In this document: positions 39,387 through 59,323 of the stretch, piece by piece
Layout: each line of letters starts with the position of its first letter
Position numbering within the stretch: the first letter of the stretch is position 1
Assembly: GCF_001693275.1 (NCBI RefSeq)
Contig: NZ_CP016477.1
Location: 2,294,001 to 2,358,000 of the forward strand
DNA length: 64,000 nucleotides
DNA from: Picosynechococcus sp. PCC 7117
GTDB lineage: Bacteria; Cyanobacteriota; Cyanobacteriia; Cyanobacteriales; MRBY01
Reading direction: 5' to 3'
Translations under genes and position numbers: made by a program
The notes under the pieces: generated by a model
The model's database searches: none
Told to the model about the DNA's origin: nothing
Seen by the model: only the letters and a program-made list of their open reading frames with translations

Positions 39387-40466
39387 GTAATTCGATTTAA
39401 CAGTATATCCTGAACTTTTTCCCGGTAGCAAGCTTTTGACCATGGCGGCGCGAATGGCCTGGGTTTGACCAAAGATGCTGTACATCATTGCTTCGCGATA
39501 AAGACGTTGAGCCGGACTGGTGAGTAAATTTCCTGCTCCCCCGGACCAAGTAAGGGCAATTTGGGCGAAGGTTTGGGCCATTTGGATCACGCTTAGACGC
39601 AACGCTAACTGGGTTTGGAAACTTTCTGTTTGGGGTTCCTCAATAGCACGAAACAATTGATCATGGAGTGTCTGCCAATGATCTTCTAGGGCCGCTAAAT
39701 CATCAAATTCAGCCGTTGCTAACCAATCGAGCACCCCCCGCGCGCAACCGAGGGCGAAAAAGCCATGGTTTAGAATCTGTTGGCGATCGCCTTTGTGAAT
39801 CGTGCCGGGGGGCTGGATCACCAGAACATCTGTGGCAGGAACTAACCAATTTTGGAGTTTGACTGTCACCGTTTGACTCACTCCCATGGCGGCGAGGGGG
39901 AGGGGTTGACTACAAAAAATTTCTCCCTGCTCTGATGGCTGTGATGTTTCGAGGGGAATCAGGCCATACCATTCTGAACCGTCGGGTAATGTGGCTCCGG
40001 CGATCGCCTGTTGAAAAAAACCATAGCCCGTCACCCAAGGAATCGTTCCCGTTAAGCAATAACGATCACCCTGGGGAATTGCCTGTACTGCCGGTTCACC
40101 CCGCCGCCGGAGATGGGAAAAACCCACACCAATCCGCACATCCCCCCTGGCCATTTGGGGTAATAACCGCTGCTGCTCAGAGTTGCCGAACCGGGCAATG
40201 CGACTGGCCGCACTCTGGTGTTGGGTTTGCAGAAAAGCTAAAGTGCCCGAAGCCGCCGCCATTGCCACTGTGGCTTGGTAATATTCCATCGTGCTCAGCC
40301 CAGAACCCCCTAAATTTTCGGGCACCCGGAGCGTCAGGAGGTGGCGATCGCCTAGACCATCAAGGGCTCGACCGAGAGCCAGGGGATCTTGATCCAGCTT
40401 TTCCGCCTGGGGCGCGATCGATAAACGGAGATATTCTGCTAAATTTTCCCAGGTAAACTGACCCAT
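39366..40466 (-). CDS. Acyl-CoA dehydrogenase family protein
   Basis: A 366-residue FAD-dependent acyl-CoA dehydrogenase homologue. Seen: LRVPENLGGSGLSTMEYYQATVAM, a middle beta-domain with GDRYCLTGTIPWVTGYGFF, and a helical C-terminus with QLALRLSVIQMAQ and RLYREAMMYSIFGQTQAIR. The usual catalytic Glu is not obvious. Cyanobacteria of this group lack classical beta-oxidation, so the substrate is unclear. Its last codons lie inside the tRNA-Gly gene, so the annotated C-terminus ...NYAGVVQW is tRNA sequence. Confidence 0.75.
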   Translation of the reverse strand: MGQFTWENLAEYLRLSIAPQAEKLDQDPLALGRALDGLGDRHLLTLRVPENLGGSGLSTMEYYQATVAMAAASGTLAFLQTQHQSAASRIARFGNSEQQRLLPQMARGDVRIGVGFSHLRRRGEPAVQAIPQGDRYCLTGTIPWVTGYGFFQQAIAGATLPDGSEWYGLIPLETSQPSEQGEIFCSQPLPLAAMGVSQTVTVKLQNWLVPATDVLVIQPPGTIHKGDRQQILNHGFFALGCARGVLDWLATAEFDDLAALEDHWQTLHDQLFRAIEEPQTESFQTQLALRLSVIQMAQTFAQIALTWSGGAGNLLTSPAQRLYREAMMYSIFGQTQAIRAAMVKSLLPGKSSGYTVKSNYAGVVQW

Positions 40467-40650
40467 TGATCAAAAATAATTTAACCCTACTTTTTTACAG
40501 AGTCCCTGACCATTAGCATCCTCAATTTTGCGGTTGCCCTAATTCCAAAAGGAAACTAGAAGATGGCGGTACAATAACTAAAAATCTTAACCTAACACCC
40601 TTAACTTCCCCGTCAATCCACTCACCCAACCACCTATTTCCCAGGTTCCT

Positions 40651-41607
40651 ATGGCACTCATCATTAGTACCGTCAACATGAAAGGGGGCGTTGGTAAAAC
40701 CACCCTCACCGTCAACCTCGCCGCCTGCCTTGCCCGTCACCACAAAAAACGCGTACTTGTTGTTGATCTCGACTCCCAGATTAGTGCCACCCTCAGTTTG
40801 ATGCCTCCCCAGGATTTTGCCCGGATCCGCAAAGGCCGCCGTACCATTAGCCATCTCATCGAAATGGCCATCAAGCCGACCCTCAAACAAAGCCTGGACA
40901 TCAACGACATCATTTGCCCTTACATTGCCAACGTCCAGGGCCTAGACCTCCTTCCCGGTGACATTGAGCTTTATGACGAATATCTCGTCTCGGAAATGCT
41001 CCACCAAAAAGCCCATAAAGATCCCAGCCTAGACTTTCAAGCCATCTGGAACAATTTTGAGCTGGTCTTAATTCGTAAGATCCTGGCCCCGGTAATGGAT
41101 AAATATGATTTCATCATTATGGACTGTGCCCCCGGCTATAACCTGGTAACCCGGAGTGGTTTGGCCGCCAGCGATTTTTATATTTTGCCTGCCCGCCCCG
41201 AACCTTTGTCTGTGGTGGGAATTCAACTACTGCAACGGCGAATCCGTGCCCTACGGGATAGCCATCAGGATACTGACCCCAGAAATATCGATCCGATTAA
41301 ATTAGATCTATTGGGCATCGTTTTTATTCTCTCTGGTGGGAGCCTGCTCAATCGCTACTATAACCAAGTGATGAAACGGGTTAGTGATGACTTTACCAGT
41401 ACGCAAATTTTTAAATACAAAATCCCCATGGATGTGAATGTCGCCAAGGCCCTGGATACATTTCAGCCGGTCGTTGTTTCGATGCCAAATACGGCTGGAG
41501 CGAAGGCATTTATGAAACTCACAGAAGAGTTCCTGGCGAAACTCAAGGAAGCAGGGGGCCTCGCAGAGCAGCGTCCTTCTCGAATTAACCTCGCGGACAT
41601 TGAATAG
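40651..41607 (+). CDS. ParA/MinD-family ATPase
   Basis: A 318-residue ParA-type ATPase with the deviant Walker A MKGGVGKTTLTVNLA (residues about 10-24), a Walker A' aspartate in VLVVDLDSQISATLSL, and the Walker B-like FIIMDCAPGYN. No parB follows; instead a 55-codon gene lies 74 bases downstream. Chromosomal solitary ParA proteins often position protein complexes (for example carboxysomes), but that role is not shown here. Confidence 0.88.
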   Translation: MALIISTVNMKGGVGKTTLTVNLAACLARHHKKRVLVVDLDSQISATLSLMPPQDFARIRKGRRTISHLIEMAIKPTLKQSLDINDIICPYIANVQGLDLLPGDIELYDEYLVSEMLHQKAHKDPSLDFQAIWNNFELVLIRKILAPVMDKYDFIIMDCAPGYNLVTRSGLAASDFYILPARPEPLSVVGIQLLQRRIRALRDSHQDTDPRNIDPIKLDLLGIVFILSGGSLLNRYYNQVMKRVSDDFTSTQIFKYKIPMDVNVAKALDTFQPVVVSMPNTAGAKAFMKLTEEFLAKLKEAGGLAEQRPSRINLADIE

Positions 41608-43865: not shown

Positions 43866-44258
43866 ATGAAACAGGCGATCGCCAAATTTTTGACCCAGCC
43901 CAAAGACCGAAAAGTTGCTGTCGGTCTCGCCCTCCTTGGTTCGGTAACGCCCCTCTCCGGCGTCCACAAATTTTATGTCGGGCAACCAGTCTGGGGCGTT
44001 GTGTATATTCTCCTCTGGTCAACGCCGATCCCCCAAATTGCCTGTGCCATCGAAGCGGTCTGGTACCTACTGCAAGATTTTGACTCGTTCCAAGCTCGGT
44101 TTGGTCTAACAAAAGCTCCAGCGTCTGACCAGGCGATCGCCGCTGTCCAACAAACTGCTGCCATTGCCGAAGCGCTCCGGGAACTCGAAAAACTTCGGGT
44201 GGAAGGTTTGATCACCGAATATGAGTTTGAGCAAAAACGCCGCCAGCTCTTGAATTAA
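43866..44258 (+). CDS. TM2-domain protein with SHOCT-like C-terminus
   Basis: About 130 residues from the ATG at 43866 (MKQAIAKFLTQPKDRK); the frame is open to a GTG at 43818. Two hydrophobic segments (VAVGLALLGSVTPLSGVHKFYVGQ and VVYILLWSTPIPQIACAIEAVWYL) with GxHKFYxG form a TM2 domain. The C-terminal LEKLRVEGLITEYEFEQKRRQLL matches the SHOCT motif. Role unknown. Confidence 0.8.
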   Translation: MKQAIAKFLTQPKDRKVAVGLALLGSVTPLSGVHKFYVGQPVWGVVYILLWSTPIPQIACAIEAVWYLLQDFDSFQARFGLTKAPASDQAIAAVQQTAAIAEALRELEKLRVEGLITEYEFEQKRRQLLN

Positions 44259-44347: not shown

Positions 44348-45889
44348 ATGACAAGTTCCCAACAACGGGCCGCCTTGCAACGCCAGATCTGGCAAATCGC
44401 GAATGATGTACGCGGCTCAGTCGATGGCTGGGATTTTAAACAGTATGTGCTGGGGGCGCTGTTCTATCGCTTTATCAGTGAAAACTTTACTGGCTACATC
44501 GAAGCCGGTGACGACAGCATCCATTACGCTGAGCTGCCCGATAGCGTGATCACGCCCGACATTAAAGAAGATGCGATTAAAACGAAGGGCTATTTTATTT
44601 ATCCTAGTCAATTGTTTGCTAATATTGCCGCGAGTGCTAATACAAATGAAAGCCTAAATACTGACCTAACAGCAATTTTTGTGGCGATTGAGAGTTCGGC
44701 GAATGGCTACCCTTCTGAGAGGGATATCAAGGGGCTATTTGCGGATTTTGACACCACTAGCAACCGTCTCGGCAATACGGTTAAGGATAAAAACCTGCGG
44801 TTGGCGGCGGTGCTGAAAGGGGTGGCGGGACTGGATTTCGGGAATTTTGATGCCAGCCATATTGATTTGTTCGGTGATGCCTATGAGTTTTTGATCTCGA
44901 ACTATGCGGCGAATGCAGGGAAATCGGGGGGCGAGTTTTTTACGCCGCAGCATGTGTCACGGTTGATTGCTCAGTTGGCGATGCACGGGCAAACCAGCGT
45001 GAATAAAATTTATGATCCTGCCTGTGGTTCGGGTTCGCTGCTGTTGCAGGCTAAAAAGCATTTTGATGCTCACCTGATTGAAGAAGGTTTTTACGGGCAG
45101 GAGATTAACCACACGACCTATAACTTGGCGCGGATGAATATGTTTTTGCATAACATCAACTACGACAAGTTCAACATTCAGTTGGGTAATACGTTGACTG
45201 ATCCGCATTTTGGGGATGAAAAGCCCTTTGATGCGATTGTTTCTAATCCGCCCTATTCGGTGAAGTGGATCGGTAAGGATGATCCAACGCTAATTAATGA
45301 TGATCGCTTTGCGCCTGCGGGGGTACTTGCGCCAAAGTCTAAGGCTGATTTTGCGTTTGTGTTGCATTGTTTGAGTTATTTATCGAGTAAGGGACGGGCG
45401 GCGATTGTTTGTTTCCCCGGTATTTTTTATCGAGGTGGCGCTGAGAAGAAAATCAGAAAGTATTTGGTCGATAACAACTATGTGGAAACGGTGATCGCCC
45501 TTGCGCCGAATTTGTTTTTTGGGACGACCATCGCGGTGACGATTTTGGTGTTATCGAAGCATAAGCTGGATACTAAAACCCAGTTTATTGATGCGAGTGG
45601 GTTGTTTAAAAAGGAAACGAAAACGAACACCCTGACGGATGAGCATATTGGGAAAATTTTGGGGGTGTTTGAGAGTAAGGAAAATGTTGATTATTTTGCG
45701 AAATCTGTGACCTTTGAGGAGATTACGGCGAATGATTACAATTTGTCGGTGAGTAGTTATGTGGAGCCGGAGGATACGCGGGAGAAAATTGATATAAACG
45801 AGCTTAATGCTGAGTTAAAAACGACGGTAGCGAAGATTGATCGCCTGCGGGCTGAGATTGATGAAATCGTGGCGGAGATTGGGGAATGA
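44348..45889 (+). CDS. hsdM: Type I restriction-modification DNA methyltransferase HsdM
   Basis: A 513-residue N6-adenine methyltransferase. N-terminal HsdM domain ([24 protein letters not shown]), AdoMet-binding [13 protein letters not shown], catalytic NPPY in [14 protein letters not shown], and the linked [15 protein letters not shown]. Complete. Its stop overlaps the hsdS start (ATGA), so they are coupled. The codon use and scarcity of HIP1 sites compared with flanking core genes suggest horizontal origin. Confidence 0.96.
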
Positions 45890-47067
45890 GTGATATGAAT
45901 TTTCTGGAAAGGTTGTTGGATGGGGCGGCGGTGGAGTGGAAGCCATTGGGGAATATAGCAACATTACAGCGCGGTCGAGTAATGTCAAAAGGTTATCTAG
46001 TTAATAATGCAGGAAGCTATCCCGTATTTAGTTCCCAAACTGCAAATAACGGCATAATCGGTAAAATCAATACATTTGATTTTGATGGGGAGTTTATTAG
46101 CTGGACAACTGACGAAGCTAATGCAGGCACTGTTTTTTATCGAAATGGAAAGTTCTCGATTACAAACGTTTGTGGGCTAATAAAAATCAATGACGAATTA
46201 AACCTTAATTATAAGTTTTTATTTTATTGGTTAACAATTGAGGCGCAAAAGCATGTTTACTCCGGCATGGGTAATCCTAAGCTAATGAGTCATCAAGTTG
46301 AAAAAATTCCGATCCCTATACCATGCCCCGATCGCCCCCTTGCCATTCAAGCGGAAATCGTGCGGATTTTGGACACTTTTACAGAACTGACTACAGAACT
46401 GACTGCACGCCGAAAACAATATAACTACTACCGCGATCGCCTGTTGAATTTTAAAGAAGGTGAAGTGGAGTGGAAGACGTTAAAGGAAGTGGCTCTTGAT
46501 TTTGGTCGTGGAAAATCAAAACATCGTCCGAGAAATGATCCGAAATTATATGGTGGAAATATTCCATTTATTCAAACAGGTGATATTAGAAACGCATCTC
46601 ACATTATTCAGACATACAGTCAGACATATAGTGAGATCGGTTTAAAACAAAGTAAATTGTGGCCTAAAGGAACTTTGTGCATTACTATCGCAGCCAATAT
46701 TGCAGAAACCTCAATTCTAGGATTTGATGCTTGTTTCCCTGATAGTGTTATTGGTTTTGTTGCAAATCCAGAGAAAACCACATCAGATTATGTGGAATAT
46801 CTCTTGTCATCCCTTAAAACTAAGCTGGAGAAAAAAGGGCAAGGAAGTGCTCAAAGCAATATAAATTTAGGTACATTTAAAAGTCTTAGATTTCCTTTTC
46901 CTCCCCCTGAAGAACAAGCCCGCATCGTTGCAATCCTCGACAAATTCGACACCCTCACCACCTCCATCAGCGAAGGCTTACCCCGTGAAATTGAACTGCG
47001 GCAAAAGCAATATGAGTATTACCGCGATCTGTTATTAAACTTTCCACCCCCTCTAACTCCCTCTTAA
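45886..47067 (+). CDS. hsdS: Type I restriction-modification specificity subunit HsdS
   Basis: A 393-residue protein with two target-recognition domains (about residues 10-145 and 195-335), each followed by a conserved helical repeat: [18 protein letters not shown]...[12 protein letters not shown] and [18 protein letters not shown]...[12 protein letters not shown]. It therefore would recognise a bipartite site. The last residues, FPPPLTPS, and the stop codon come from the palindromic repeat that follows, not from hsdS proper. Confidence 0.93.
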
Positions 47068-47114
47068 TCGGAGAATCTTGTCCCCTCCCTTCATAGGGGA
47101 GGGCTAGGGAGGGG
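47047..47114 (+). repeat. MITE-like palindromic repeat, copy A
   Basis: A 68-base unit: left part CCCCTCTAACTCCCTCTTAA, then a GAATCTTGTCCCCTCCC core and right part GGGGAGGGCTAGGGAGGGG. Left and right parts are imperfect inverted repeats. It begins inside the last codons of hsdS. A second copy of the same layout lies at 47488-47568. Confidence 0.8.
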
Positions 47115-47139
47115 TAAAACACTCTCAGGACACAGCAAA

Positions 47140-47508
47140 ATGAAGCAAATTTTCAACAAAACCGAATACAAAACCCGCCGCCAAACACTCCGCAACAACA
47201 TGACCGAACCCGAAAAAAAACTATGGCAAATCCTGCGCGGCAAACAAATGGGCGTAAAATTTCGCCGACAGCACGGCATCGGGCACTATATTGCTGATTT
47301 TTATTGCCCCGAATTAAAAATTGTCATCGAAGTCGATGGCGACAGTCATAAATCAGCCGAAGCACAAACCTATGACGCGATCCGCACTGATTTTATGGCT
47401 TCATTAGGTATTACTACTTTACGATTCACCAATGACGAAGTGATACACAATATTGAGGGCGTTCATCAGCAGCTTACGCAATACTTACCCCCTCTAGCTC
47501 CCCCTTAA
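47140..47508 (+). CDS. DUF559 domain endonuclease-like protein
   Basis: A 122-residue protein related to very-short-patch-repair (Vsr) and restriction-endonuclease-like folds. LRNNMTEPEKKLWQILRG, KFRRQHGIGHYIADFYCPELKIVIEVDGDSH shows a PD-(D/E)xK-type site (D...E-V-D). The C-terminus LPPLAPP with its stop is encoded by the flanking repeat. It lies between two copies of that repeat, inside the hsd locus. DNA cleavage is probable from fold; partner and target are unknown. Confidence 0.88.
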   Translation: MKQIFNKTEYKTRRQTLRNNMTEPEKKLWQILRGKQMGVKFRRQHGIGHYIADFYCPELKIVIEVDGDSHKSAEAQTYDAIRTDFMASLGITTLRFTNDEVIHNIEGVHQQLTQYLPPLAPP

Positions 47509-47568
47509 GAAGGGGGAGAACAAGAAAGCTTGTCCCCTACTCTTTTCAGGGGAGGGCTAGGGAGGGGG
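47488..47568 (+). repeat. MITE-like palindromic repeat, copy B
   Basis: An 81-base unit with the same layout as copy A: CCCCTCTAGCTCCCCCTTAA, then AAGCTTGTCCCCTACTC, then GGGGAGGGCTAGGGAGGGGG. It contains a longer central stem (CCCCCTTAAGAAGGGGG) absent in copy A. It begins in the last codons of the DUF559 gene. Confidence 0.8.
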
Positions 47569-47653
47569 TCAAGGCGATCATGCTGGCACAAATAAATAGA
47601 AACTATCCTGAACATCAGCTTTTACAGTTACAGATAACATAAAAATAAAAACG

Positions 47654-47893
47654 ATGATTAATCAATATCAAGTCCGTTTATTTCACAATGGACGCAATCA
47701 AACCCTAAACATTCCCCACGCCTTTGAAATGCCGAGTGATGATGTGGTCATTCGCAAAGAAGGCGAGAAATTGATTATTGAACCTTGTAAGAAAAAGTCC
47801 TTATTAGAATTGTTGGCGACCCTGCCAGACATTGATGAAGACTTTCCAGATATTGATCAAGGCTTACCGCCCCTTGATGATATTCAATTTTAG
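47654..47893 (+). CDS. vapB: Antitoxin of the VapB/AbrB-like type
   Basis: A 79-residue protein: N-terminal AbrB/MazE-like swapped hairpin (YQVRLFHNGRNQTLNIPHAFEMPSDDVVIRKEGEKLIIEP) for DNA binding and an acidic C-terminus (LPDIDEDFPDIDQGLPPLDD) likely to bind the toxin. vapC starts 2 bases after its stop. Confidence 0.9.
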   Translation: MINQYQVRLFHNGRNQTLNIPHAFEMPSDDVVIRKEGEKLIIEPCKKKSLLELLATLPDIDEDFPDIDQGLPPLDDIQF

Positions 47894-47895
47894 CA

Positions 47896-48297
47896 ATGAC
47901 CTATCTCTATCTGTTGGATACAAATATCATTTCAGATTTGGTCAAGCATCCATCTGGAAAAATCGCCCAACGCATTGCCGAAGTTGGCGAGGCGAAGATC
48001 TGCACAAATATCGTTGTTGCCGCAGAGTTACGGTTTGGCGCAGAAAAAAGTGGATCACTCCGTTTAAAACAACAAGTCAATCAAATCCTTGAAGTGATGC
48101 CCGTTTTGCCCCTTGAGTCACCCGTTGAATTTTATTACGCCGAGATTCGCACCTATTTAGAAAGGGAAGGAATACCAATTGGTGCAAATGATTTACTGAT
48201 TGCAGCCCATGGGTTGGCTTTGAATTTAACCGTGGTTACCGCAAATCAACGTGAATTTTCGCGTGTGCCAAATTTGGCTGTGGAAAATTGGCTCTGA
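47896..48297 (+). CDS. vapC: PIN-domain ribonuclease toxin VapC
   Basis: A 133-residue PIN-domain toxin. Acidic site residues D8 (YLLDTNIISDLV), E44 (VVAAELRFG) and D99 (IGANDLLIAAH), with the final TANQREFSRVPNL motif, are all present. VapC proteins cleave tRNA or rRNA and are held in check by VapB. Complete and apparently functional; hsdR follows 36 bases later on the same strand. Confidence 0.93.
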   Translation: MTYLYLLDTNIISDLVKHPSGKIAQRIAEVGEAKICTNIVVAAELRFGAEKSGSLRLKQQVNQILEVMPVLPLESPVEFYYAEIRTYLEREGIPIGANDLLIAAHGLALNLTVVTANQREFSRVPNLAVENWL

Positions 48298-48333
48298 GCC
48301 ATCCAAACATAATTTCATCTAAAAAATCAAATC

Positions 48334-49896
48334 ATGACCGACTATAAGGCGATCGCCGAATCCAATAACTTTATAATTCTCGATAAATACAGCAAAAAAT
48401 TAAGAGTTAAGGAAAGCTACCAAAGCGAATACGATTTAGAGAGCGAATTTATTCAGGATCTAATCCAGCAAGGTTATGAATACCTGCCCAACGTCACCAA
48501 TCCCCAAGCAATGCTAGCCAATGTGCGTGAGCAATTGCAAACACTCAATGATGTGCAGTTTACCGATAGTGAATGGCAACGTTTTGTCGAAACCTATTTA
48601 GATAAACTAAGCGACGGTATCACCGATAAAACTCGCAAAATTCATGATGACTATATCCATGATTTTGTCTTTGATAATGGTCGCATTCAAAACATCTACC
48701 TACTTGATAAAAAGAACCTTGCCCGTAATAAAGTCCAAGTCATCAAGCAAATTCAACAAAAAGGAACCCAAGCCAATCGCTACGATGTAACCATTCTGGT
48801 CAACGGTTTACCGCTAGTACAAATAGAACTAAAAAAACGCGGTGTAGCAATTCGTGAAGCCTTTAACCAAGTCCATCGCTACAGCAAAGAAAGCTTTAAT
48901 ACAGAGCATTCCTTATATAAATATTTACAGCTATTTGTGATTTCTAATGGCACTGATACCCGCTACTTTGCCAATACCACCCAGCGGAATAAAAATAGCT
49001 TTGACTTCACCATGAACTGGGCGAAAGTCGATAATAGCCCGATTAAAGATCTAAAAGACTTTACCGCCACCTTTTTTCAAAAAAACACCTTGCTCAATGT
49101 GCTGTTGCAGTACTCGGTGTTTGATGTGAATAACACTCTACTGGTGATGCGCCCCTACCAAATTGCCGCTACCGAGCGTATTTTATGGAAAATCAACAGC
49201 CCCTATGAAGCCAAAAACTGGAGTAAACCCGAAAGCGGTGGCTATATCTGGCACACCACAGGCTCCGGCAAAACCCTAACCAGCTTCAAAGCGGCACGGC
49301 TGGCGACGGAGTTGGAGTTTATCGATAAGGTGTTTTTTGTAGTTGATCGTAAAGACCTCGACTACCAGACCATGAAGGAATACCAACGCTTTTCCCCCGA
49401 TAGCGTCAATGGTTCTGATAGCACTGCGGGGCTGAAGCGAAATTTGGAAAAGGATGACAACAAAATCATCGTCACCACCATCCAGAAACTCAATAACCTG
49501 ATGAAGTCCGAAAGTGACCTAGCTAGCTATAACCAGCAGGTCGTATTTATTTTTGATGAATGCCACCGCAGCCAGTTTGGGGAAGCCCAGAAGAACTTAC
49601 AGAAAAAATTTAGGCGATTTTATCAGTTTGGATTTACTGGCACGCCGATTTTTCCCAAAAACGCTTTGGGCGCAGACACCACCGCCAGCGTATTCGGGCG
49701 TGAATTACATTCCTATGTGATCACCGATGCAATTCGTGATGAGAAAGTACTGAAGTTCAAGGTGGACTACAACGATGTGCGCCCACAATTTAAAGCCATT
49801 GAAACCGAGCAAGACGAGCAAAAACTGAGCGCCGCCGAAAACAAAGAAGCCCTGTTACACCCAGAGCGTATCCGTGAGATTGTTCAATACATCTGA
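48334..49896 (+). CDS. hsdR: HsdR type I restriction subunit, N-terminal half (frameshifted)
   Basis: First 520 residues of the restriction/translocase subunit. PD-(D/E)xK nuclease core in [21 protein letters not shown], helicase motif [19 protein letters not shown], motif [15 protein letters not shown] and motif [12 protein letters not shown] are intact. Translation stops at a TGA at 49894 in the middle of the helicase domain. The other half continues in another frame at once, so this is one gene broken by an apparent one-base deletion (see the finding). Confidence 0.9.
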
Positions 49897-49922
49897 AGAA
49901 CTTCCGCCAAAAAAACCACCGC

Positions 49923-51431
49923 TTGCAAGCTGGCAGCAAAGGCTTTAACGCGATGTTTGCGGTGAGCAGTGTGGACGCGGCCAAGCTGTATTACGAAACC
50001 TTTAAGCAGTTGCAAAAAGACCGCGATAAACCCCTAAAAATCGCTACTATTTTTTCCTTTGCCGCTAATGAAGAACAGGCAACCGTGGGCGAAATTTTGG
50101 ATGAAAGCTTTAATGTCTCCGCCATGAACAGCAGCGCTAAAGAATTTTTAAGTGCTGCTATTAATGACTATAACGCCCTGTTTAAAACCAATTTCAGCGT
50201 TGATAGCAACGGTTTCCAAAACTACTACCGCGATCTGGCCAAGCAAGTCAAAGCCCAAGAAATCGACCTGCTAATTGTGGTGGGGATGTTCCTGACGGGG
50301 TTTGATGCGCCTACCCTTAACACTTTATTTGTGGACAAAAACCTGCGCTATCACGGTTTGCTGCAAGCCTATTCCCGCACTAACCGGATTTATGATGCTA
50401 CTAAGACCTTTGGCAATATCGTCACCTTCCGCGATTTAGAACAAGCCACCATTGATGCTATTACCCTGTTTGGCGATAAAAATACCAAAAACATGGTGCT
50501 GGAAAAAAGCTATCAGGAATACATGGAAGGCTTTACCGATTTAGTGACGGGTGAAGCACGGCGTGGCTTTGGGTCGGTAGTGGCAGAATTAGAGCAACGT
50601 TTCCCCAACCCTGACGAAATTGTTTTAGAAAAAGACAAAAAAGACTTTGCTAAGTTGTTTGGCGAATACTTGCGCGTTGAAAATGTACTGCAAAACTACG
50701 ATGAATTTGCCAGCCTAAAAGCCTTACAACAGGTCGATATAAATGACCCGGCGGCGGTTGAAGCCTTTAAAGCAGAACACTATTTGAGTGATGAAGACTT
50801 AGTGACCCTGCAAGCTATCAAGGTTCCTGGCGATCGCACCATTCAAGATTATCGCTCCACTTACAACGATATCCGCGACTGGTTACGCCGCGAAAAAGCT
50901 GCTGAAGCCCAACAGAAATCCACTATCGATTGGAATGATGTAGTTTTTGAGGTGGATTTACTGAAATCCCAAGAAATTAACCTGGATTACATCCTGGAGC
51001 TGGTCTTCGACCACAACAAGAAAACCAAGAGCAAAGCTGACCTCGTTGACGAAGTACGCCGAGTTATTCGCGCTAGCCTTGGTAACCGTGCCAAGGAGAG
51101 TCTATTGGTCGATTTTATTAATCAAACTGATCTTGACCAAATTGATGATAAAGCTAGCGTGGTCGAAGCTTTCTATGCTTTTGCCCAAGCTGAGCAGCAA
51201 CAGGAGGCGGCAAAGCTGATTACCGCCGAGAGCCTAAATGTGGAAGCAGCTAGGCGTTACATCACCACCTCTTTAAGGCGGGAGTTTGCTAGCGCACATG
51301 GCACTGAGCTCAACGCCATTCTGCCCAAGATGAGTCCACTGAATCCACAGTATCTGAGCAAAAAGCAAAGCGTGTTCCAGAAAATCGCTGATTTTGTTGA
51401 GAAGTTCAAAGGTGTGGGGGGACAGGTTTAG
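49923..51431 (+). CDS. hsdR: HsdR type I restriction subunit, C-terminal half (frameshifted)
   Basis: About 502 residues: second helicase half ([63 protein letters not shown]) and C-terminal HsdM-contact domain. The frame is open upstream to 49893, reading [14 protein letters not shown] just after the N-terminal half's stop. There is a TTG at 49923 and an ATG at 49953, but neither is likely to be a true start. It ends one base from the stop of the convergent Rieske gene. Confidence 0.88.
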
Positions 51432-55348: not shown

Positions 55349-58222
55349 TTGCAAGTAGATTTAAATCAAGTTTTTCCGTTTCAGTTAGATCAATTTCAAA
55401 AACAGGCGATCGCCGCCCTCGATGCCGACAGATCCGTGGTGGTCTGTGCGCCGACTGGCTCCGGTAAAACTGTCATTGGCGAATATGCGATCCACCGGGC
55501 CCTCGCCATGGGTCAACGGGTTTTTTATACCACTCCCCTGAAGGCGCTCTCTAACCAGAAATTCCGGGATTTTGGCGAAACCTTCGGCGAAAAACAAGTG
55601 GGTTTGATCACGGGCGATATCATCATCAATGCCCAGGCGACCATCGTCGTCATGACCACGGAAATTTTCCGAAATATGCTCTACGAAACCCCCATTGGTC
55701 AGGTGGGCACGTCCCTAGAAAATGTTTCAACGGTCGTCTTGGATGAATGCCACTACATTAGCGATCGCGGTCGCGGCACTGTCTGGGAAGAATCAATTAT
55801 TTATTGCCCCTCAGAAATTCAGATTGTTGGCCTGTCGGCGACCATCGGCAACCCAGAAATTTTTACCGCCTGGATTAACAAAACCCGCCAAGCGGCCCAT
55901 GAAGACCACCCCAACAGCAAAGAACACCGCTGCGAATTAGTCGATTCTGACCACCGCCCCGTACCTCTAGAGTTTCTTTACAGCAATAAAAAAGGCTTGT
56001 ACCCGCTTCTGGATCAGGGGGGGAGCAAAATGAATTCGCGTCTGCGATCGCGCACCAATGCCCCCCAAGGTAAGCGCAAAAAACGCCAACGGGAAGATTG
56101 TCCTAGTTTATTTGCCATTGTGCGCCAACTCCGCCAAAAGGATCTCCTGCCCGCGATTTACATTATCTTTAGTCGGCGGGGCTGCGATCGCTCGGTGACC
56201 CAACTCAACGACATCACCCTCGTTTCCCCAGAAGAAGCCAAACTCTTGGAAGCGACCCTGCTGCACTTTTTCTTAGATAACCAAGGGAAGCTCCAGGAAA
56301 AGCTCCTCAATCAATGTGATGACACCCCAGAATTTAAAGCCCTGGTGCTGGATTTCATCGCTAAAAATCCCTTTTCTACCGAAAAGCTAGTGGACTATCT
56401 CCAGGAAAATCTCCCCCTGCGCGAACAGCTTTGGCAATACCTCGCCCAACAGTCAAAATTTGCCCGTCCCGAACAGGTGGAACCTCTACTGCGGGGCATT
56501 GCCGCTCACCATGCGGGGATTCTGCCAGCCTGGAAAGAACTGGTCGAAAAGCTGTTTGAAATGGGCCTCGTGAAATTGGTGTTTGCGACGGCGACTTTGG
56601 CTGCAGGGATCAATATGCCCGCCCGCACCACGGTAATTTCTGCCCTCTCGAAACGTACCGATGAAGGGCACCGGATGTTGACGCCTTCGGAATTTTTGCA
56701 GATGGCGGGTCGCGCGGGTCGTCGGGGCATGGATAAAGTGGGCTATGTGGTCACTGTGGAAACGCCCTTTGAGGGAGCAAAAGAAGCCTCTCGCCTTGCC
56801 CTCTCTAGTGCAGAACCGTTGCGCAGTTGGTTTACGCCTTCCTACGGTATGGTGCTTAATCTGTTGCAGAAACATAGCCTGGAAGAATCGAAGGAACTCT
56901 TATCCCGGAGTTTTGCGGAATATCAGGTACAACAACAACTCAGCCCGGAACAGGAGGCGATCGCCGAACTGACCACGGAAATTGCTCGCCTCGACATTGA
57001 CCTCGCGGCCTTTGATGAACGGCAGTTTGAACGCTACAGCAAACTCAAGGAACGGCTCAAGGAAGAAGAACGGCTATTGGGGATTCTCCGGGAGCAGGCG
57101 GAACTCGAAAACCGTAAACTGCTGGCCCCTTTGTTGGATCAGCTTCCCCTCGGCTCTATTTTGCACCTCAAAGGGAAAAACCTGCGGGTCAAAGAAGCGG
57201 TTCCCGCCGTCCTTGTAGAACAAACTGAGGAACAGCAGTTTCTGTGTTTGGGCACCGATAAGCGTTGGTACCTAATTAAAGAAACGGACGTGGTTGCCCT
57301 CAATGAAGGTCTTTTTCCCGCCGATCAACTGGCGCAAATTCCGTTACCCATTGATCAAAATCTCACCCTTGGGAAAAATGGCAAAATTGATGCTGAAGCT
57401 TTTCCCCTCGTGGCGGCGATCGCCGATTACCTTCTGCCCCTCACCGAAGCCCCTGAAGTAGAAGCCCAAAAACAACGCTTTGCCGCTGTCCAGGCCAAAT
57501 TTGCCGCTTCTCCCCTGAGCCAGCAGGACAAACCCGGCAAACTCCTCAAACGTCACCAGCGACGCAAAGACCTCCGCAAAGAATTAAACCGTCGTCAAAC
57601 CCTCTACCGTCAACATGCCAACAAACGTTCCTATTACTGGCAAGATTTCCTGAACCTGATTGAAGTCTTACAAGAATTTCGTGCCCTCGACGGCTATACG
57701 CCAACGGTTTTAGGGCGTACTGCGGCAACAATTCGTGGGGAAAACGAACTATGGTTGGCGCTGTGTCTGCTTTCGGGCCAATTAGATCACCTCGCGCCGG
57801 AACATTTGGCCGCCGCTATCTGTGCGATCATCAGCGAACCGCCCCGGGGTGATAGTTGGACAGATTATTCTCAACCCAATGCCGTTTTAGAAGTGCTGGG
57901 CATCCGCAAAAAAGACCAAGGCCATAACCCCGTTAGCCTGTGGGAACTGCGTCGGCAACTGTACCAAGTGCAAAAACATTGCGGTGTGACCATGCCCGTT
58001 TGGCTTGAAAGTAAATTTATTGGCCTCGTGGAGCAGTGGGCCTTGGGGGTCGAGTGGACAGAACTCTGTGAAAATACCAGCCTTGATGAGGGAGATATTG
58101 TGCGGATGTTGCGGCGCACGGTCGATGTCCTCTGGCAAATCCCCCAAATTCCGGAGATTAAACCTGTTCTCATGCGCACTGCCAAAGAGGCGATCGCCAA
58201 AATGAAACGCTTCCCCGTTTAA
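55349..58222 (+). CDS. Ski2-like DEAD/DSHCT-domain RNA helicase
   Basis: A 957-residue helicase. Motifs: APTGSGKTVIGEYA (I), TTPLKALSNQKFRDF (Ia), VVLDECHYISDRGRGTVWEE (II, DEVH-like), IVGLSATIGN (III), and QMAGRAGRRGMDKVGYV (VI). The last 150 residues form the DSHCT domain of exosome-associated Mtr4/Ski2 helicases. The start is a TTG at 55349; no ATG or GTG in frame precedes the conserved FPFQLDQFQKQAIAAL. The last 30 bases including the first bases of the stop are copied at 58730. Confidence 0.9.
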   Translation: MQVDLNQVFPFQLDQFQKQAIAALDADRSVVVCAPTGSGKTVIGEYAIHRALAMGQRVFYTTPLKALSNQKFRDFGETFGEKQVGLITGDIIINAQATIVVMTTEIFRNMLYETPIGQVGTSLENVSTVVLDECHYISDRGRGTVWEESIIYCPSEIQIVGLSATIGNPEIFTAWINKTRQAAHEDHPNSKEHRCELVDSDHRPVPLEFLYSNKKGLYPLLDQGGSKMNSRLRSRTNAPQGKRKKRQREDCPSLFAIVRQLRQKDLLPAIYIIFSRRGCDRSVTQLNDITLVSPEEAKLLEATLLHFFLDNQGKLQEKLLNQCDDTPEFKALVLDFIAKNPFSTEKLVDYLQENLPLREQLWQYLAQQSKFARPEQVEPLLRGIAAHHAGILPAWKELVEKLFEMGLVKLVFATATLAAGINMPARTTVISALSKRTDEGHRMLTPSEFLQMAGRAGRRGMDKVGYVVTVETPFEGAKEASRLALSSAEPLRSWFTPSYGMVLNLLQKHSLEESKELLSRSFAEYQVQQQLSPEQEAIAELTTEIARLDIDLAAFDERQFERYSKLKERLKEEERLLGILREQAELENRKLLAPLLDQLPLGSILHLKGKNLRVKEAVPAVLVEQTEEQQFLCLGTDKRWYLIKETDVVALNEGLFPADQLAQIPLPIDQNLTLGKNGKIDAEAFPLVAAIADYLLPLTEAPEVEAQKQRFAAVQAKFAASPLSQQDKPGKLLKRHQRRKDLRKELNRRQTLYRQHANKRSYYWQDFLNLIEVLQEFRALDGYTPTVLGRTAATIRGENELWLALCLLSGQLDHLAPEHLAAAICAIISEPPRGDSWTDYSQPNAVLEVLGIRKKDQGHNPVSLWELRRQLYQVQKHCGVTMPVWLESKFIGLVEQWALGVEWTELCENTSLDEGDIVRMLRRTVDVLWQIPQIPEIKPVLMRTAKEAIAKMKRFPV
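58192..58221 (+). repeat. 30-bp direct repeat, left copy
   Basis: The sequence from GATCGCCAAAATG to CCCCGTTTA spans the last codons of the helicase gene. It recurs without mismatch at 58730-58759. The pair bounds an AT-rich insert of 508 bases. Confidence 0.95.
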
Positions 58223-58223
58223 A

Positions 58224-58610
58224 ATGATAAACAAATCTTTAATTCCAACCATCTTTCCCGTTAGCTTACTTTTCCTGTTGTTTATGGATAAGGCTTGGGC
58301 AGATCTCATGCCTACTGACGGATTAACTAGATATGAAGATTATAGGCAAGAACTTATCACTGTTGGTTGGATACCTAGTCCAGATCCAATCTTAAACAGA
58401 GATGTTGACGGAATGCCAGAAGTAATTTGTGGAACTAAAATTTGTAGTGCAAGCTTTATTTCTGCAGATAAAAAACAAGGCATAAGTATAGTTCTTTGGC
58501 CTGCATATCTTCAAAGTTATAACCAAAGAGCTTTGTATGTGGCACCACAGTTTGAAATATACGATTGTTCTGTAGAAAGTATGTCCGTCGAGAACTTTTA
58601 CTGTGAATGA
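58224..58610 (+). CDS. Small exported protein of unknown function
   Basis: A 128-residue protein with a Sec signal peptide (IPTIFPVSLLFLLFMDKAWA, AxA-like site) and a mature part with four cysteines (VICGTKICSAS, YDCSVE, FYCE) that could form two disulphides. Codon use is AT-rich and unlike its neighbours; there is no HIP1 site. It is the only gene of the insert between two 30-bp repeats. No ribosome-binding site is visible. I do not recognise the family. Confidence 0.65.
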   Translation: MINKSLIPTIFPVSLLFLLFMDKAWADLMPTDGLTRYEDYRQELITVGWIPSPDPILNRDVDGMPEVICGTKICSASFISADKKQGISIVLWPAYLQSYNQRALYVAPQFEIYDCSVESMSVENFYCE

Positions 58611-58729
58611 TTTATGTGCATTATATCGAGCACTTTCCAAAAGATAAGATATGCTAGTTTGACTGTACGTATTGCTTGACTGCTATAACTTCCAGTCCAG
58701 ATAAGTCCTATTTTAGGGAATCTCCAGAT

Positions 58730-58759
58730 GATCGCCAAAATGAAACGCTTCCCCGTTTA
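58730..58759 (+). repeat. 30-bp direct repeat, right copy
   Basis: Perfect copy of 58192-58221. It restores the helicase-terminal sequence ...CCCCGTTTAG, as if the ancestral helicase ended here. Confidence 0.95.
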
Positions 58760-58855
58760 GGTTTCCCCTTGCGGAAGCCAATCATCTGTGAGTAATTGCC
58801 CCAAATGAGAAAGGCCGGAATTTTCCCATTTCTACAAAATGTCTAAAGGGTTGTT

Positions 58856-59323
58856 ATGGTTACGATTCGTCCGTTTCAAACTCAGGATATTCCGGCGATC
58901 GCCCAACTGTTCCACGACACTGTCCATACCATCAATGCCCAGGACTATTCCCCGGCCCAACTGCGAGCCTGGGCACCCGATGACTTGTATTTCCGCGATT
59001 GGGAAACCCGTTGTCATGCTTGCTTTACTTACGTTGCCGAAGAGGATAAACAAATCCTTGGGTTTGCGGAACTTTCGCCAGCGGGTCACATTGGCTGTTT
59101 CTATTGCCACAAAGACCACCAACGGCGGGGTATTGGTCGCCAACTCTATCAGGCACTCCTCGCCCAAGCAGACCAGTTACAACTCAGCACCTTAACCGTC
59201 GAAGCTAGTATTACCGCGAAACCTTTTTTTGCAGCCCTGGGGTTTCGGATTCTCCAAGAGCAACAGGTTCAACGCCACCAACAAACATTAACGAACTACC
59301 GGATGGTCAAGCAGCTTCGTTAA
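58856..59323 (+). CDS. GNAT family N-acetyltransferase
   Basis: A 155-residue acetyltransferase. Acetyl-CoA loop in HKDHQRRGIGRQLYQALL (Q/R-x-x-G-x-G/A type, about residues 87-103); MVTIRPFQTQDIPAIAQLFHDTV is the typical first strand/helix. The C-terminus (ITAKPFFAALGFRILQEQQV) is also typical. Acceptor substrate not known. Confidence 0.88.
   Translation: MVTIRPFQTQDIPAIAQLFHDTVHTINAQDYSPAQLRAWAPDDLYFRDWETRCHACFTYVAEEDKQILGFAELSPAGHIGCFYCHKDHQRRGIGRQLYQALLAQADQLQLSTLTVEASITAKPFFAALGFRILQEQQVQRHQQTLTNYRMVKQLR

Follow-up and report, generated by a model that had tools for sequence, protein, structure and literature searches.

A mini-insert at a helicase gene end and recurrent HIP1-edged gene-end duplications in Picosynechococcus

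Results

The helicase locus

The window analysed here is a stretch of 64,000 nucleotides of Picosynechococcus sp. PCC 7117 (contig NZ_CP016477.1, positions 2,294,001 to 2,358,000). Near its right end lies a gene for a DEAD-box RNA helicase, the tail of which is repeated directly downstream, beyond a short insert with a single open reading frame (ORF) that we call the cargo (Table 1). The two copies are identical at 30/30 bases, start 538 bases apart and have 508 bases between them. The initial annotation had described them as the last 30 bases of the gene; the perfect match and the spacing hold, but the repeat ends at TTTA, one base before the gene end, and it is the following base that completes a different stop codon in each copy. 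A chance repeat was ruled out by a tail pattern search and by a filtered repeat scan: 26 bases of the tail occur at only two sites in the 3.43-Mb genome (up to three mismatches; reversed control, 0), and the window repeat is the sole one to pass the scan filters given below in the surrounding 464 kb. The repeat and its insert are therefore a real feature of this genome. The helicase itself is widespread, its last 93 codons being matched in 190/195 genomes of the order.

The insert was correctly annotated as AT-rich, with a G+C content of 36.2% against 49.8% in the surrounding 464 kb, and the G+C content at third codon positions is 0.28 in the cargo ORF compared with 0.56 in the helicase gene. 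It was also said to be free of the palindrome HIP1, and none is found, but only about 0.9 would be expected per 508 bp at the density of the genus, so this is a weak point by itself. The gene-attached copy has an exact HIP1 at its edge, and the junction copy has two changes within HIP1. There is no tRNA at the insertion site, an Rfam search of the site gave no match at the gathering score, and the insert has no match in five other genomes of the genus.

Table 1. Positions of the features at the helicase locus, counted from the first base of the window
Feature	Position	Strand	Remark
Gene for a DEAD-box RNA helicase with a DSHCT domain at the C-terminus; insertion target at the 3′ end of the gene	55349–58222	+	Pfam DEAD and DSHCT above cut-off
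HIP1 decamer GGCGATCGCC within the helicase gene, 21 bases ahead of the stop codon; 5′ edge of the duplicated tail	58189–58198	.	edge test
Repeat copy 1, gene-attached; next base A gives the stop codon TAA	58192–58221	+	
Foreign insert, 508 bp, 36.2% G+C, without HIP1	58222–58729	.	
Cargo ORF, 128 amino acids, putative secreted protein, four cysteines	58224–58610	+	begins 2 bases past the repeat, adjoining the helicase stop codon
Insert-to-displaced-tail junction, GATGATCGCC; HIP1 altered in the outer half	58727–58736	.	
Repeat copy 2, interpreted as the displaced resident tail; next base G gives the stop codon TAG, as in G002, G004 and G005	58730–58759	+	
No blastn match in the G002 sequence retrieved; the inversion has its left breakpoint in this stretch or at its edges	58760–58817	.	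G002 homology restarts at 58818
GNAT acetyltransferase gene, neighbour of the helicase gene owing to the inversion	58856–59323	+	in G002 about 421 kb from the helicase gene, on the opposite strand

The cargo gene

The insert had been said to hold one gene for a secreted four-cysteine protein. The single ORF and its four cysteines stand; secretion is suggested by a hydrophobic N-terminus recognised by eye. The ORF is matched in 4/386 cyanobacterial genomes, namely the window genome and three genomes of one other genus of the same order, at 41, 41 and 39% identity, the last copy having an internal stop. By eye, two of these three genes lie ahead of a small two-gene unit that resembles a toxin-antitoxin pair, and the copy with the internal stop adjoins a transposase-like gene. 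No match was counted in the other genomes of the Picosynechococcus genus, nor in plasmids, phages or viral contigs, and the product belongs to no Pfam family at cut-off and to no NCBIfam family. A structure predicted from the single sequence had a mean pLDDT of 45 and was unusable. Three weaker matches were set aside: one with two stops (E 0.003) was left uncounted; the only one in wider genome contigs overlies a dehydrogenase-like gene and was judged to be chance; and a partial match of the right end of the insert to another intergenic place (E 0.005) is probably chance as well. By its distribution, the cargo is a patchy accessory gene with a putatively secreted product.

Related genomes and a large inversion

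We compared six genomes of the genus, the window genome (G000) and G001 to G005, all of which have the helicase. In each of the five relatives there is one tail, with no second copy within about 1.5 kb downstream, and the genome-wide tail pattern (at most three mismatches) falls at a single place in G001, G002 and G004; the tails of G003 and G005 are too divergent for that search. Among the relatives the stop codon is TAG in G002, G004 and G005, as after copy 2, and TAA in G001 and G003, as after copy 1. This one-base pattern is what would be expected if copy 2 were the resident end, and suggests that copy 1 arrived with the insert. An insertion that duplicates the 3′ end of the gene while keeping it, as the initial annotation had proposed, is supported by the single tail of the five congeners and by the stop codon of the displaced copy.

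The right flank of the locus differs from that of the relatives owing to an inversion of about 443 kb relative to G002 (G000:C1:2352222 to 2795662), confirmed by a colinear comparison of G000 and G002 over about 400 kb in inverted orientation. Downstream of the helicase gene, G002, G004 and G005 have a convergent glmU-like gene, and G001 and G003 have other genes. In G000, about 443 kb separate the helicase gene from the glmU-like gene, which is next to an ABC-permease-like gene, here called X; in G002 and G005, X precedes the GNAT gene. One end of the inversion falls between the helicase 3′ end and the GNAT gene, the other between X and the glmU-like gene; each is in a short intergenic stretch. 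Adjacency of helicase and GNAT genes was not seen in G001 to G005; because it arose through this large inversion, the predicted empty site, with a single tail joined to the GNAT gene, was not found. (The names glmU, argH, hypA, MFS, porin, Uma2, DUF29 and HicAB, as well as RelE- and PIN-like, ABC permease and formate-dehydrogenase-like, were assigned by eye from translations.)

Local duplications across the genus

A total of 2.49 Mb of the genus (1.264 Mb of G000, 0.825 Mb of G002 and 0.400 Mb of G004) was scanned for direct repeats of 24–200 bp with at least 40 bits, at least 75% identity and a spacing of 150–12,000 bp, excluding repeats inside one ORF and pairs with both copies deep in ORFs. 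A locus was scored as HIP1-edged when an exact GCGATCGC lay at most 4 bases from a repeat edge. The scan returned 11 loci, 9 of which lie at a gene end, judged from the listed ORFs, and 9/11 have HIP1 at an edge (at both copies in 7, at the attached copy alone in 2, the helicase and MFS loci), where random placement gives 2.9% and 2.8% in two calculations. A stricter count, in which the two argH loci are merged and the DUF29 locus (within a larger duplication) and E380226 (a repeat of at least 215 bp) are dropped, leaves 6/8 with a HIP1 edge (p 1.4e-8), or 5/7 without the window locus (p 3.6e-7). Among loci found after the HIP1 idea was formulated, the proportion is 6/8, or 5/7 minus argH, and 3/5 on the stricter count (p 2e-4). 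Two further repeats of G000 fell below threshold, one of 118 bp at 72% identity and one a 31-bp remnant of the argH tail (35 bits), each with HIP1 at one edge. Eight inserts totalling 11,806 bp would be expected to contain 20.9 HIP1; they contain 3, all within the same insert.

The duplicated genes and their cargos vary. X, the inversion partner, has its last 40 bp duplicated in G002 (38/40 identical) around 2.8 kb that contain toxin-antitoxin-like and Uma2-like genes, and the argH-like gene end is present in G002 and G004 as several diverged copies with cargo between them. By eye, G004:C1:521468-522510 holds two tandem HicAB-like units of about 0.5 kb, split by 33–35-bp repeats that start with HIP1.

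Natural plasmids served as an out-of-sample set. The same scan was run on eight 50-kb plasmid stretches from PCC 7002, PCC 7003 and PCC 73109, and other parS-site rows, CRISPR arrays and a family of palindromic repeats were excluded by eye. HIP1 lies at the edge of 4/6 loci (p 1.8e-6, null 1.9%), and of 2/4 (p 0.002) after removal of one locus containing parS and one near insertion-sequence genes. The clearest case is on pAQ7 of PCC 7002 (40030-40924), where 92 bp of the end of a VWA-domain gene are duplicated at 92% identity around a DUF86/nucleotidyltransferase pair, with an edge at HIP1.

Empty sites and the origin of the attached tail

For two of the insertions, a sister species has the exact empty site. 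A hypA-like gene in G002 carries a 688-bp insert with a Uma2-like cargo; in G000, the 45-bp stretch is single and the insert is absent. Conversely, an MFS-like gene in G000 carries 2,062 bp with a porin-like gene, and in G002 the 128-bp stretch is single and the insert is absent. The two MFS tails differ from each other at 22/128 positions, and the attached copy matches G002 at 107/128, the displaced copy at 123/128. Relative to G002, the attached copy is 88% identical over the 60 bp preceding HIP1, 75% over the 60 bp from HIP1 on and 90% over the 60 bp after those. At this locus, then, the displaced tail resembles the resident and the attached tail a newcomer, an argument for entry of a donor tail together with its cargo as one unit. 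The hypA copies (43 and 42/45 against G000) do not decide donor origin, and the X tails match G004 equally (38 and 38).

How specific is HIP1?

HIP1 is the commonest octamer in the 2.49 Mb (4,397 occurrences), and its frequency has to be taken into account. Among HIP1 pairs 150–12,000 bp apart, 13/90,625 are alike on one side only, whereas the other octamers of the 400 most frequent give 5/63,863. Grouped into loci, the counts are 6 for HIP1 and 2 for the other octamers; a coding repeat accounts for one of the six, and of the two control loci one represents the opposite edge of a locus already counted for HIP1.

A comparison of G000 with G002 over about 400 kb gave 37 indel or replacement junctions. 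An edge repeat score of at least 15 was found at 3/37, these being gaps of 63 and 69 bases and argH. At a fourth junction exactly the HIP1 decamer is common to the edges, with a score of 10, while the scores of random pairs do not exceed 11 in 99% of cases. As a raw count, HIP1 is near the edges at 11/37 junctions.

Discussion

These observations are best read as a form of ‘insertion with long target duplication’. We consider it probable that the 508-bp segment is accessory DNA that recombination, acting without a dedicated integrase, captured at the 3′ end of the helicase gene, one of the junctions being at HIP1. DNA in which a near-identical helicase tail was joined to the cargo would have recombined with the resident gene through that tail, and its far end would have been joined at the resident HIP1 decamer ahead of the stop codon; the gene would have retained a working 3′ end, and the old end would have been pushed downstream as copy 2. 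Such DNA could have entered by natural transformation from a close relative. The joint may have resembled homology-facilitated illegitimate recombination or the HIP1 plasmid recombination reported for PCC 7002, the HIP1 at the junction may since have decayed to TGATCGCC, and the cargo may be co-transcribed with the helicase gene. The mini-insert would then be one case of a recurrent, HIP1-edged capture of accessory genes in the genus, a pattern that is well supported in the sequence examined and whose mechanism we infer.

A broader proposal is possible, and we make it tentatively: that HIP1 palindromes are the joining sites of accessory-gene uptake at gene ends, where a gene tail with its cargo would be joined at the HIP1 nearest the resident gene end, replace the tail and displace the old one downstream. 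Several points weigh against these interpretations. The scan filters were fixed after two looser scans. A palindromic repeat (C552167) and a gene-end duplication in G004 (D4506) have no HIP1 edge, nor do two of the plasmid gene-end duplications, and most accessory DNA in the comparison of G000 with G002 has no edge repeat scoring 15 or more. The outer half of HIP1 is not intact in the window junction copy. The attached tail of X is slightly nearer to the sister G000 than is the displaced one (39 against 37/40), which leans away from a donor tail; the window tails are identical, so a donor origin of copy 1 hangs on a single base; and no donor carrying the helicase tail with the cargo was found. 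Finally, the per-pair excess of HIP1 is only about twofold and the numbers are small, so HIP1 may be just the commonest microhomology. Given this excess, we do not claim HIP1 as a proven specific site: it may be a specific joint or the most available microhomology.

The initial annotation had raised a site-specific integrase or a satellite mobilised in trans. In such a scheme the insert would be a remnant of, or a satellite to, a tyrosine-integrase element with the helicase 3′ end as attB and the 30-bp repeats as attL and attR, the integrase having been lost or acting in trans. Direct repeats of a gene 3′ end with the gene preserved fit this, and a complete integron integrase (TIGR02249, 469.9 bits, cut-off 265; G004:C1:531145-532152) is encoded in G004 inside an array of argH-like 3′-end copies that also contains toxin-antitoxin-, acetyltransferase- and cupin-like genes; fragments of such an integrase are present in G003 and G005. 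This enzyme may have acted at argH, but it does not explain the window site, where the only feature in common with argH, judged by eye, is the HIP1 edge. As the initial annotation noted, there is no integrase at the locus: no ORF between the repeats is of integrase size, and the four Phage_integrase matches of G000 (one below cut-off) are about 580 kb distant or on different contigs. Integron integrases gave no match at E 1e-5 in G000, G001 or G002. The tail as attP had 0 matches in viral contigs, using a degenerate 23-mer, and in 13 plasmid and 9 phage records the matches were short and weak (E 0.4 at best). A wider set of 30 helicase loci was fetched, of which 11 could be parsed, and the other 10 of these have no second tail copy; the ORFs downstream of 24 loci were read by eye, the minus-strand loci being unturned and hence uninformative. 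After the searches for integrases and for attP, an integrase or satellite origin is unsupported, and we regard it as unlikely. A general junction mechanism fits better than one site-specific integrase because the gene-end duplications recur with different genes, lengths and cargos and usually have a HIP1 edge; by eye, HIP1 is all that the repeats share. Just past argH in G004, an attC-like dyad was seen by eye.

A by-product of the inversion would account for the position of the insert, which is located at a breakpoint, if repair there had copied the helicase tail and inserted filler DNA. After an inversion by staggered breaks, an inverted copy would be expected at the opposite breakpoint, yet the genome has two forward and no reverse matches to the tail, and similar units occur at other places (hypA, MFS); we rejected this origin as highly improbable. 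A generic insertion with long target duplication, by a staggered break or template switch at any microhomology, with HIP1 at the edges merely as the most frequent long word, is a further alternative. It draws on the modest per-pair excess with few events, on the gene-end duplications without HIP1, on the absence of a donor signal in the X and hypA copies and on the precedent, as described, in Helicobacter pylori. The divergence of the MFS tails, the displaced one being the resident, shows that this case is not a plain recent duplication of host DNA, and we think the generic account rather doubtful.

The proposed capture of accessory DNA through a gene tail has partial precedents. Insertion with long target duplication was reported in Helicobacter pylori (Nobusato et al. 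2000, as described in PMC1643837). As in that description, accessory DNA here lies between long direct target repeats and is recognised through related genomes: at the window locus the insert sits between direct copies of a stretch that is single in relatives, and the hypA and MFS loci have exact empty sites. Unlike in that description, one edge here is usually HIP1, the duplicated part is usually a gene end and in one case, that of MFS, the attached copy does not derive from the resident tail; the two window copies, by contrast, are identical. The HIP1 recombination of plasmids in Synechococcus PCC 7002 (Akiyama et al. 1998, as cited in PMC4390886 and PMC9239245) involves the same genus, the same word and joints at HIP1; as cited, it concerns plasmids, whereas the insertions here are of accessory genes in chromosomes and natural plasmids. 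In homology-facilitated illegitimate recombination during natural transformation, uptake of foreign DNA is aided by homology and completed at joints of 3–10 bp, according to the account in PMC6382021. The MFS case, read from sequence alone, fits this and X leans the other way; the joint here, in contrast to that account, is one particular word. The small tandem units also recall integron cassette arrays, and one relative has an integron integrase inside such an array, but none was found in the window genome, and the repeats consist of gene tails.

Many cyanobacterial genomes contain HIP1 in great excess, and in the passages of a 2015 paper that treat it (PMC4390886) little is said to be known of its biological significance; they mention hints of site-specific recombination in PCC 7002 and no evidence tying HIP1 to homologous recombination. 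A comparison of S. elongatus strains describes HIP1 in two genes ahead of an inversion and suggests plasmid fusion at HIP1 (PMC9239245, in the part concerned). HIP1-edged gene-end duplications are not described in the open-access literature passages searched, although a prior report is still possible. The insertions reported here would be a counterpart in natural genomes to those hints, and they make a function of HIP1 testable through gene-tail units, empty sites and predicted joints, in a genus of which one laboratory strain can be transformed. They also suggest that these bacteria may acquire genes by a route that requires no enzyme of a mobile element. If HIP1 joins such units, its abundance would play a functional part in gene capture or at least have a bearing on it; if it is only the commonest microhomology, it would still help to explain where small accessory genes, including toxin-antitoxin pairs, enter.

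Other features of the window

A cluster resembling a type I restriction-modification system, recognised by eye, occupies positions 44348-51431 and is missing at the matching place in G004, where sequences homologous to window positions 44257 and 51450 are nearly contiguous. Its restriction subunit is split in the window into two ORFs in different frames, 48334-49896 and 49923-51431.

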